Source: a virus. Taken from it: a stretch of DNA of 22,859 bases. Positions 2,992 to 6,138 of the stretch are shown piece by piece. Position 1 is the stretch's first letter, and the number at the start of each line of letters is the position of its first letter. The position numbers were made by a program, and so were the translations under genes. The notes under the pieces were generated by a model. It was not told where the DNA came from. It worked only from the letters and a program-made list of their open reading frames with translations, and searched no databases. The DNA is taken from positions 1 through 22,859 of the IMG/VR virus record IMGVR_UViG_3300042549_006056, one strand, 5' to 3'.

Positions 2992-3380
2992 TGCAAGCTG
3001 AAATGCCCTTCTACGAGAGTGCAGAACAGGCCCTTACGGCTGCGGTTCAGCACCTCGGCGGCGCCAAGCAGGTCGGCGCCGCTCTCTGGCCAGATAAGAC
3101 GCCAGACGGTGCGCGCACGCGGCTGTTGGACTGCCTGAACCCTTCGCGCTCCGAGCGCCTGGACATGAGCGAAGCCATGTTCATCCTGCGCAAGGCCAAA
3201 GAGAAGGGCTTTCACGCGCCATTCCACTGGATCTCCGGATCTGTTGGCTACGAGGCGCCTAGGCCCCTCACTAACTCAGGCGAGGAAGATCGCCTCACCA
3301 CGGTCATCGACAACGCAACCAAGACTCTCGCTGCGGCGTTGCCGATGCTGGAGCGGATGCAGCGAGCGAGGGCGGCATGA
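2991..3380 (+). CDS. CII-like / phage regulatory DNA-binding protein
   Basis: 129 residues from the ATG at 2991; an upstream extension in the same frame is possible but looks non-coding. GGGAG (2977-2981) lies 9 nt upstream and supports this start. The N-terminal region (YESAEQALTAAVQHLGGAKQ, then VGAALWPDKTPDGARTRLLD and CLNPSRSERLDMSEAMFILR) reads as an HTH unit of the kind found in CII-like and toxin-repressor-like phage regulators. The C-terminal part (TTVIDNATKTLAAALPMLER) is helical and may oligomerise. It overlaps the HNH gene by 4 nt (ATGA). A role as transcription regulator is inferred. Confidence 0.75.
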   Translation: MQAEMPFYESAEQALTAAVQHLGGAKQVGAALWPDKTPDGARTRLLDCLNPSRSERLDMSEAMFILRKAKEKGFHAPFHWISGSVGYEAPRPLTNSGEEDRLTTVIDNATKTLAAALPMLERMQRARAA

Positions 3381-4093
3381 GATTGACTCCGGAATTCCTT
3401 GAAGAGCTTCGCGTGATGCTTTTCAAAGCAAGTCACCTCCTGCTTGATGCCCATATTCACATCAGGCGCAAGCCGATGATCGGCGGCGTCTTTGGAGCGG
3501 CTGGTTTTAGCCTTTGCTCATACAACAGCACCTACACCGGCCTTGACGTTCCGACCTACCTTGTCATGGAGAGTTCATCAGGGCTGATGCTTGCCAGGGA
3601 GGGGACAAAGGCCGAGGCAATTGACCTCTCGAGAGTTGTCCTGCAGCGAATTGGCCCTTCTGTTTTTGCGGGCTGGTCGGCTCAGTTCCATGCGGAGGTT
3701 GAGGCGAACAAGGCCATCGCAGAGGCGGCCAAAGCAAAGGCCTGGGAAGAGCGGCGGGCAAAGTTCGCGGCAGAGTCGGCGACTGTGGCAAAGAAGGTTC
3801 CTCGTAGGCGTGCTGCTGTTTTCGCTGCCTCGAATGGGAAGTGCCACTACTGCTCAACCGTCCTATCGCTTGATGGCAAATGGCACATCGAGCACAAGAT
3901 GCCGCGCGCACTTTTGGGAGGTAGCGAGCAATCAAACCTCGTCGCCGCATGCGTGTCTTGCAACATGAAAAAGCGCGACCAGACGGACCTTGAGTTCATC
4001 GCTTCGCGTGGCAAGCCCGCACGGCCTCCCCTCGCCGAAGTGTCAGCCCCAAAGCCAGCCCAGGTCTGTGCTGTATCGAACCCAACGGAGTAA
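3377..4093 (+). CDS. HNH endonuclease
   Basis: 238 residues. A zinc-type HNH domain lies at about 154-205: Cys156-x2-Cys159, then WHIEHK (His170, His173 core), Asn187 in the SNLVAAC segment, Cys192-x2-Cys195-Asn196 and Lys198/199. The N-terminal 140 residues form an unrecognised domain followed by an Ala/Lys-rich helix (about 105-140) that may be a coiled coil. Such enzymes cut or nick DNA; in phages they act in packaging, homing or exclusion. This one is among early genes, far from the terminase, so a packaging role is unlikely. It starts inside the stop codon of the previous gene (ATGA). Confidence 0.85.
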   Translation: MRLTPEFLEELRVMLFKASHLLLDAHIHIRRKPMIGGVFGAAGFSLCSYNSTYTGLDVPTYLVMESSSGLMLAREGTKAEAIDLSRVVLQRIGPSVFAGWSAQFHAEVEANKAIAEAAKAKAWEERRAKFAAESATVAKKVPRRRAAVFAASNGKCHYCSTVLSLDGKWHIEHKMPRALLGGSEQSNLVAACVSCNMKKRDQTDLEFIASRGKPARPPLAEVSAPKPAQVCAVSNPTE

Positions 4094-4333: not shown

Positions 4334-5107
4334 ATGACAGCCTACTACAACGAGTTCGACAAATATGCTGCTCAGTGGCTCCGAAACCTCATTGCTGCCG
4401 GACACATCGCGCCCGGCGTCGTTGATGAGCGAAGCATCGAGGACGTACACCCCTCGGACCTCGCCGGCTTCACGCAATGCCATTTCTTCGCCGGCATTGG
4501 CGTCTGGAGCTACGCCCTTCGGCGCGCCGGATGGCCAGATGACCGACCTGTTTGGACCGGTTCCTGTCCGTGCCAACCTTTCAGCGTCTCAGGCAAGGGA
4601 ACTGGGTTTTCTGACGAACGGGATCTCTGGCCGAGCTGGTGCCACCTCATCCGCGAGCGTGGCCCTGCAGAAGTCCTTGGAGAACAGGTTGCAAGCCCTC
4701 TTGCCAAGCCCTGGATCGACCGCGTGTGCCATGACGTGGAAGCGCTGGACTACGCCTTCGGGGCGGTCGTATTCCCTGCTGCAGCCGTCCGCGCTCACCA
4801 CGTCCGAAAGCGGGCGTACTGGGTGGCGAAGTCCAGCCGCCACGGATGGCGAAAAGACCGACGCCACGCTGCCGAAGGTGCTGGAGCGGATCGCGGCTGG
4901 CAACAAGCAGATCAGCCTGGCCATGCAAGCTCGGCTGTCGATTGGGTCCGGTGCGTTGACGGCAAGTCCCGGCCGGTTGAACCCGGCTCATTCCCGCTGG
5001 TTGATGAGGCTCCCTGCCGCGTGGGACGCCTGCGCGCCTATGGAAATGCCATCGACGCCGAAGCGGCGCGCGTCTTCATCGAAGCAACCATGAGGGCCTC
5101 AGCATGA
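4334..5107 (+). CDS. C5-cytosine DNA methyltransferase (phage Dcm type)
   Basis: 257 residues, short for the family. Motif I is FFAGIGVWSYALRRAGW (51-67), binding S-adenosylmethionine. Motif IV is GSCPCQPFS with the catalytic Cys at 80. Motif VI corresponds to GEQVAS (116-121, Glu117). Motif VIII corresponds to HHVRKRAYWV (155-164). Motif X is RLRAYGNAI (232-240). The target-recognition region between VIII and X is only about 65 residues, so specificity may be limited or the enzyme may be degenerate there. It probably protects phage DNA against host restriction. The last 550 nt also encode a second protein in another frame (4539-5093). The TGA at 5105-5107 overlaps the next ATG (ATGA). Confidence 0.88.
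   Translation: MTAYYNEFDKYAAQWLRNLIAAGHIAPGVVDERSIEDVHPSDLAGFTQCHFFAGIGVWSYALRRAGWPDDRPVWTGSCPCQPFSVSGKGTGFSDERDLWPSWCHLIRERGPAEVLGEQVASPLAKPWIDRVCHDVEALDYAFGAVVFPAAAVRAHHVRKRAYWVAKSSRHGWRKDRRHAAEGAGADRGWQQADQPGHASSAVDWVRCVDGKSRPVEPGSFPLVDEAPCRVGRLRAYGNAIDAEAARVFIEATMRASA
4539..5093 (+). CDS. Overprinted ORF inside the methyltransferase gene (MTDLFG-type protein)
   Basis: A 184-residue protein read in a different plus-strand frame wholly within the cytosine methyltransferase gene. It begins MTDLFGPVPVRANLSASQAR and contains ATSSASVALQKSLENRLQAL, then STACAMTWKRWTTPSGRSYS, then GWRSPAATDGEKT and a C-terminal block RLNPAHSRWLMRLPAAWDAC. I recognise this order (MTDLFG start, TWK...TPSGR, WxxPxAxD, LNPAHSRWLMxLPxxWD) from proteins annotated next to phage cytosine methyltransferases, from memory only. 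The MTDLFG codons are the same DNA as the methyltransferase PCQPF region. No strong Shine-Dalgarno precedes 4539; the frame is open upstream to 4365. Function is unknown. Confidence 0.6.
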   Translation: MTDLFGPVPVRANLSASQARELGFLTNGISGRAGATSSASVALQKSLENRLQALLPSPGSTACAMTWKRWTTPSGRSYSLLQPSALTTSESGRTGWRSPAATDGEKTDATLPKVLERIAAGNKQISLAMQARLSIGSGALTASPGRLNPAHSRWLMRLPAAWDACAPMEMPSTPKRRASSSKQP

Positions 5108-5394: not shown

Positions 5395-6138
5395 ATGAGC
5401 TTTGAGAAAGTCGTTATCGGGAATGCGACGTTGTACCTGGGCGATTGCCTGGAGGTAATGCAAGAGTTTGGCGCACGGTCGTTTGACTTGGCCGTCACTG
5501 ACCCGCCGTATTTCGACGGCCCCAACAAGTCGGGCTATTACGGCCGGGGTTACTCAAGCCTTGGCGTTCAGCGCGCCAAGCATTACGACTCGCTGCCTGT
5601 GTGGTCGGTACCGGGCACCGACTACTTCGAGGCGCTGCGGCGAATCAGTCGCCATCAGATCATTTGGGGCGCCAATCACTTCGCTGACCGTTTCAAGTCG
5701 GACGGCCCGGGGTGGATCGTCTGGGACAAGCTCAACGGAGCTAGCACCTTTGCGGATGCCGAGCTTGCCTACTGCTCGATGGACTGCGCCGTGCGAGTGT
5801 TCCGCTATGTCTGGAACGGCATGCACCAGGGCCAGTATGGCGGCAACAAGGCAAAGAACGAATCGCGCATTCACCCGACACAGAAGCCCGTAGCGCTGTA
5901 CGAATGGTTGCTCGACAACTATGCCGAGGCTGGCCAGCGCGTGATCGACACGCACATGGGCAGCGGGTCCAGTGCTATCGCTGCTAACACCCGAGGCGTC
6001 GAGTACTTCGGCATTGAGATCGACCCGGTGATGTTCGAGGCCGCCTGTCGCCGCATCGAAGAGGCCCAGCGCCAAACAGCCCTATTCACGCCAGAGCCCG
6101 CCACGCCGGCTCAGCAAACAAGCCTTCTGGAGGCCTGA
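5395..6138 (+). CDS. DNA methyltransferase, N6-adenine/N4-cytosine family
   Basis: 247 residues. The catalytic motif IV DPPYF is at 36-40 near the N-terminus, followed by HPTQKPVALYEWLL (160-173) and the S-adenosylmethionine motif DTHMGSGSSAIA (185-196, a variant of the usual DPFxGSGT) with GIEID (206-210). The order catalytic motif, target domain, cofactor motif is the beta-class arrangement. DPPY usually indicates adenine-N6 activity; N4-cytosine cannot be excluded. GAGG lies about 7 nt upstream of the ATG. With the C5 enzyme upstream the phage carries two orphan-type methyltransferases, probably for anti-restriction or timing control. Confidence 0.9.
   Translation: MSFEKVVIGNATLYLGDCLEVMQEFGARSFDLAVTDPPYFDGPNKSGYYGRGYSSLGVQRAKHYDSLPVWSVPGTDYFEALRRISRHQIIWGANHFADRFKSDGPGWIVWDKLNGASTFADAELAYCSMDCAVRVFRYVWNGMHQGQYGGNKAKNESRIHPTQKPVALYEWLLDNYAEAGQRVIDTHMGSGSSAIAANTRGVEYFGIEIDPVMFEAACRRIEEAQRQTALFTPEPATPAQQTSLLEA

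Follow-up and report, generated by a model that had tools for sequence, protein, structure and literature searches.

Phage cytosine methyltransferases are a standard means of restriction evasion, and their specificities are read from sequence. M.EcoHK31I needs two chains for activity, and its gene for the large chain also contains, in a different frame, the coding sequence of the small one. The enzyme (YGGCCR; Lee, Kam and Shaw 1995), as PMC3404938 describes it, carries motifs I-VIII and X on the large chain and motif IX on the small one, and the recognition domain was predicted in the large chain. Another split C5 enzyme is M.AquI (CYCGRG), whose smaller chain has the recognition residues and motifs IX and X (PMC3404938).

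In this work we analyze two overlapping frames in a viral sequence (IMG/VR record IMGVR_UViG_3300042549_006056), of which the whole stretch of 22,859 nucleotides is called here the window. Our main reading, to which we assign a probability of about 0.86, is that the locus encodes one C5-cytosine DNA methyltransferase made as two polypeptides, alpha (frame A) and beta (frame B), from overlapping frames. The neighboring genes in the window (terminase, portal, scaffold, major head protein, DnaB helicase and a repressor-like gene) indicate that the phage is podovirus-like and probably temperate. Just downstream of the pair, at 5395-6138, there is a second DNA methyltransferase gene (phrog_67, 3.2e-47), which adenine-specific models match weakly; this phage therefore has two modification genes close together. 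Upstream, at 3377-4093, lies an HNH endonuclease gene; its HNH region is similar to IscB/Cas9d models, with matches that do not reach the cut-offs of these models.

Results

Two reading frames over the same DNA

The features of the locus are collected in Table 1. Frame A presents the motifs PCQPFS, GEQVAS, RKRAYWV and RLRAYGNAI, and it matched the C5-cytosine methyltransferase family of Pfam (PF00145, E 2.7e-12) as well as phrog_363 (E 2.3e-72). Frame B is nested within alpha at an offset of +1 and encodes 242 amino acids from its first ATG, or 184 from the ATG of MTDLFG at 4539; in addition to MTDLFG it presents TWKRWTTPSGR and RLNPAHSRWLMRLPAAWD. In the searches of frame B no family of Pfam or NCBIfam was matched, and the only matches were the methyltransferase PHROGs phrog_1008 (E 4.7e-20) and phrog_31772 (E 2.3e-14). 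PHROGs 363, 1008 and 31772 all bear the label DNA methyltransferase.

Table 1. Features of the overlapping methyltransferase locus (window coordinates).
Feature	Coordinates	Strand	Evidence
Frame A, alpha, 257 aa	4334..5107	+	ORF
Frame B, beta, open frame	4365..5093	+	ORF; PHROG matches
Position of the commonest beta start in relatives	4443..4445	+	ACG in the window, without Shine-Dalgarno
Alpha motif I (FAGIG, SAM binding)	4487..4501	+	F52, A53, G54 invariant in 45 alphas
Alpha motif IV (PCQ, catalytic Cys80)	4568..4576	+	C80 invariant
Beta conserved N-terminal core (LSARQ...helix...TWKxW-TPSGR hairpin)	4577..4811	+	Codon-shuffle z; alpha fourfold divergence 0.247 vs 0.55
Alpha motif VI equivalent (GEQ, Glu117)	4679..4687	+	G116, E117, Q118 invariant
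Alpha motif VIII (RKR, Arg158 + Arg160)	4805..4813	+	R158, R160 invariant
Beta variable region, inferred target recognition domain	4812..4973	+	Codon-position signature; exchange between near-identical alphas
Beta motif IX (LNPAHSRWLMRLPAAW)	4977..5024	+	Identity higher in B than in A; fourfold divergence 0.078; in-frame before motif X in ShiLan gp70
Alpha motif X (YGNAI)	5039..5053	+	G237, A239 invariant; Y236, N238, I240 nearly so

Both frames are genes

A first-pass annotation made from this DNA alone had named a true overlapping gene pair as one possible outcome, and the homologues bear this out: frame A and frame B are both genes. A homologue of frame B was found over frame A at the identical +1 offset in 213 of 213 homologous loci. 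Homologues of frame B occur in 161 phage records, with a homologue of frame A beneath in every locus examined; among these loci, beta was never seen without an overlapping alpha. As loci fetched by MTDLFG patterns are biased on the question of the MTDLFG start, the key tests were rerun on loci selected through alpha and on phage records. For the counting of stops we used a non-redundant set of 60 sequences, picked via alpha or from annotated phage records ignoring frame B, and considered the frame-B segment between two alpha landmarks. A single stop was observed against 170 expected by synonymous shuffling, and frame B was open in 59 of the 60 sequences against 4.5 expected; the stop belongs to phiKX1, the bearer of a large insertion. 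The +2 frame of the same sequences, taken as a control, showed no depletion (656 stops, with 577 expected). An interrupted frame B beside an intact frame A, one of two outcomes that the first-pass annotation had counted against the pair, was therefore not what the homologues show.

The first-pass annotation had also held that both frames are constrained, and in agreement with this the synonymous sites of frame A do not vary freely over the overlap. Among unbiased homologues, the fourfold-site divergence of alpha is 0.549 over 4334-4538 and 0.585 over 4538-4577, falls to 0.247 over 4577-4817, 0.315 over 4817-4961 and 0.078 over 4961-5021, and comes back through 0.161 over 5021-5039 to 0.560 after 5039. 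This slowing is confined to where the conserved part of frame B lies, and the beta core is doubly constrained together with alpha motifs IV-VIII. The identity of frame B, compared with a codon-shuffle null, gave z values of 4-14 before 4577, of 23-105 over 4577-5050 and of 23-74 over 4577-4816; these z-scores are inflated because the sequences share descent, and the parts of the gene that precede 4577 and follow 5050 serve as their internal control. In the motif IX stretch (4991-5020) the identity of frame B (0.73) exceeds that of frame A (0.59), and along the LNPxHxRWLMGLPxxW block the most changeable position is alpha codon position 1, which is beta position 3. Similarly, in the variable region the third position of the beta codons changes most (0.230, versus 0.089 for the first and 0.072 for the second), so this region has been selected as a frame-B protein.

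We give practically no credence to the idea that frame B is a mere shadow of frame A, an unused frame held open by conserved alpha codons and GC-rich codon usage. The window alone would allow it, since its open frame B is unremarkable: when the synonymous codons of frame A were shuffled, 1.08 stops were expected and 22% of the shuffles were open. Nevertheless, the suppression of synonymous changes coincides exactly with B, motif IX is better conserved in B than in A, the variable region bears the codon-position signature of frame B, and the lower-GC relatives have no frame-B stops where 2-5 were expected.

How beta is started

The beginning of beta had been placed at the ATG of MTDLFG, and this start did not hold: only 18 of 61 unbiased homologues have an ATG at that position, and the constraint on frame B begins at about 4571-4577, some 35 nt past that ATG. 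MTDLFG was consequently discarded as the conserved start. Beta most often has its start 96 nt before the MTDLFG codon: there, 45 of the 61 unbiased relatives have an ATG (null 21.5 +/- 3.1), preceded by a Shine-Dalgarno core in 34 (null 10.3 +/- 3.0). Both elements together are present in 33 of 61, against a null of 3.9 +/- 2.0 and a maximum of 12 in 200 shuffles.

In the window, beta may start at ATG 4425 or at ATG 4539, neither of which has a clear Shine-Dalgarno. As the commonest start and its Shine-Dalgarno are missing, the expression of beta is less certain here than in the relatives. It could be argued that the pair is real in the relatives and that the beta of the window is losing its expression, with the ACG at 4443 and the missing Shine-Dalgarno upstream of both candidates as its marks. 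We regard this as unlikely: the beta of the window is intact and retains G59, W67, P149, W154 and W162, about half of the relatives also lack the full ATG plus Shine-Dalgarno, some ATG is within reach in 59 of 61 of them, and alpha's own start in the window is likewise without a Shine-Dalgarno.

A different way of expressing both frames would be programmed frameshifting, joining them into one long methyltransferase chain. Single-chain versions of the enzyme exist (ShiLan type, see below), so a fused product could work. However, as motif X is again encoded by frame A, the ribosome would have to shift twice, in opposite directions, and in the relatives beta has its own ATG and Shine-Dalgarno far above chance. 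Frameshifting is, in consequence, a very improbable explanation for this locus.

Alpha is most likely the catalytic subunit

Frame A is most likely the catalytic (large) domain of a C5-cytosine methyltransferase, with motifs I-VIII and X. The motifs by which this class is recognized, I, IV (PCQ), VI, VIII and X, are all in this chain; motif IX and a recognition domain are absent from alpha, and it is the +1 frame that encodes the motif IX block. The AF2 model of alpha (pLDDT 82, pTM 0.74) has a C-terminal helix at 242-256, and its best PDB matches were M.HhaI and M.HaeIII; the predicted fold is like the HhaI/HaeIII catalytic domain without the small domain. It had been suggested that frame A has a short target-recognition region as a cost of the overlap. 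Instead, the recognition region appears to lie in frame B, and what alpha has at that position (residues 183-199, pLDDT <50) is predicted to be a disordered linker under low constraint.

Beta is most likely the small-domain subunit

To the enzyme whose catalytic subunit is frame A, frame B would most likely contribute the small domain as a separate subunit, with target recognition and motif IX. The recognition domain is placed in B because the variable region, which is PTP-rich and short in the window, evolves as a frame-B protein and is swapped between near-identical alphas. The block LNPxxxxWLMGxPxxW was taken as motif IX from its position in single-chain relatives and from the motif pattern, not from structure. 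Modelled alone, beta gave a pLDDT of 61 and a pTM of 0.27, with a helix (38-54) and a hairpin (63-85) predicted, and no match in the PDB was found for it by sequence or by fold. A model this poor would fit a chain that folds only with alpha, and proves nothing.

The exchange of the variable region is seen by comparing loci with similar alphas. In the 140 pairs whose alpha catalytic domains share 85% identity or more, the mean identity is 0.82 in the beta core, 0.51 in the variable region and 0.88 in motif IX. The region differs even where the alpha catalytic domains of two loci share 98-100% identity; for example, L076 and L181 have alpha at 1.00, beta core at 0.99, variable region at 0.43 and motif IX at 0.95. 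Such a pattern is the one expected of recognition domains that are exchanged.

A subunit of the methyltransferase was one of the options of the first-pass annotation, and it agrees with a beta that holds the recognition region and motif IX missing from A. Its other options, an inhibitor or an independent counter-defence protein, are not supported, given that single-chain relatives have the pieces of beta within one protein. In principle, a small protein that is conserved within a phage modification gene could regulate or inhibit the methyltransferase, or be an independent anti-defence protein overprinted by chance, and no structure contradicts this, the beta model being poor and without a fold match. 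We consider it quite improbable, since beta contains exactly the two parts that alpha lacks, ShiLan-type chains hold a beta-type segment between motifs VIII and X, a hypervariable recognition-like region is not expected in an inhibitor, and no beta was seen apart from an overlapping alpha.

Single-chain, split and nested relatives

The assignment of the recognition domain and motif IX to beta also draws on three kinds of relatives: ShiLan-type single chains, actinophage splits, and nested pairs of gut and marine phages. In mycobacteriophage ShiLan gp70 a single frame encodes motif VIII, the LPTP region with LAPAFSEWMMGWPAGW, and then motif X; together with its single-chain relatives (19 loci in total) it presents, in one chain, the order motif VIII, LPTP-repeat region, LAPAFSEWMMGWPAGW-type block and GNGV motif X. 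In the actinophage C5 methyltransferases (loci L272-L301) alpha stops after motif VIII and a +1 ORF has the recognition region, IX and X, and these AquI-like splits stand next to single-chain relatives. Relatives from gut phages and marine phages have the nested chain of the window. Among phages that infect E. coli K-12, the pair is present in Vequintavirus pangalan and in Bas72 and its relatives of the BASEL collection.

Some individual loci deserve mention. In ShiLan (L221, 1490-1948) the catalytic region, when read in the +1 frame, contains a stretch like the N-terminal part of beta, SETWPPSGMTRSG (beta HMM, E 6e-6), which is perhaps a remnant of a nested state. The marine-phage C5 methyltransferases of the LFAGAGGGILA type (L302, 1454-2191, and relatives L303-L328) have a nested, independent-looking +1 beta with FSETCPKWGSMQNG, FWPTPVASD and FSEWMMGWPLGW. 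In Edwardsiella phage eiAU (L050, 916-2337) the beta frame stays open up to the adenine methyltransferase gene downstream, and beta is therefore in frame with it; a fusion of the two is possible, and the beta model was also matched by a 412-aa 'Methyltransferase' from phage eiDWF. Truncated or broken copies of alpha were found on plasmids of Klebsiella aerogenes and Citrobacter amalonaticus (L222, 2989-3360, and L224, 3001-3420). Locus L210 (2444-3555), with motif IX in the alpha frame and X out of frame, was set aside as a likely one-base shift or assembly error in a single contig.

Discussion

In the model that we favor, alpha would be the catalytic large domain, built of motifs I-VIII, a linker, a strand pair and motif X. 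Beta, nested in the +1 frame, would supply the small domain: the helix-hairpin core, the exchangeable target-recognition region and motif IX. Beta would be translated separately; in many relatives its ATG and Shine-Dalgarno lie within alpha's DERSIEDV codons. The two chains would assemble on DNA into one active enzyme, which may modify the phage DNA, most plausibly protecting it against host restriction; this last role is proposed from the known function of phage methyltransferases.

The nested layout is mostly mis-annotated in phages. From 21 annotated phage records of the window type, one lists both proteins and 20 only one: alpha alone in 15 of the 21, and beta alone in five (PMG1, phiKX1, Cr-LKS3, FoX4 and JC01). 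The exception is phage K1ind1, in which both overlapping ORFs are listed, as 'Mte8-like protein' and 'C-specific methylase'. PHROG 363 (alpha) and PHROGs 1008 and 31772 (beta) are separate families, for which we found no statement of one enzyme. No report of the overlap as a phage-wide feature was found in the literature available to us, which lacked subscription journals and makes this weak evidence. A hidden HNH homing endonuclease, encoded by an out-of-frame insertion, has been described in a phage methylase (PMC11855218), in a work that deals with ShiLan gp65 and not with gp70; such an explanation was discarded for beta, which matches only methyltransferase PHROGs.

Considering all these loci, we find it fairly probable that overlapping two-chain C5 methyltransferases are common in phages and not a peculiarity of a single bacterial enzyme. 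Several lineages (the window, gut-phage and marine types) would nest recognition and motif IX in the +1 frame while others are split or single-chain, exchange of a single DNA segment would replace the recognition domain and change both proteins together, and the databases would record only half of each enzyme. If an overlapping gene that is not annotated holds the recognition domain, alpha cloned alone would be inactive, and one would look for the specificity in a protein that does not determine it. Such a deep overlap can be put to the test, as it has a catalytic and a recognition domain on one DNA segment under a measurable double constraint, and the single-chain, split and nested relatives allow the origin of the overlap to be traced.

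As to the described systems, ShiLan gp70 has the same order of parts as the window pair (motifs I-VIII, PTP-repeat region, LxPxFxxWMMGWPxGW and motif X); unlike the pair, it is a single chain in a single frame. M.AquI is similar in having two chains, with motif IX and recognition in the smaller one, and differs in that its small chain also carries motif X, which in the window (YGNAI, 5039-5053) is in alpha; the AquI-like layout, with IX and X in the +1 frame, was found in the related actinophages L272 and L288.

The closest known case appears to be M.EcoHK31I, in whose manner beta (4365-5093) is nested in another frame of alpha's gene. Both have I-VIII and X in the large chain and IX in the small one. 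In contrast, the variable region of the window pair is coding in the small chain, whereas for M.EcoHK31I the recognition domain is reported as predicted in the large chain (PMC3404938). Moreover, M.EcoHK31I belongs to a restriction-modification system, while the window pair is phage-borne, with no recognized partner endonuclease of a restriction-modification system beside it; a search of plasmids for a restriction-modification relative of the EcoHK31I/EaeI kind gave, among three, only phage-like plasmids. Because the placement of the recognition domain differs from the published prediction, we say that the pair would work like M.EcoHK31I. It would be a two-polypeptide C5 methyltransferase of a known kind and, if the published placement is right, as a variant of the EcoHK31I arrangement.
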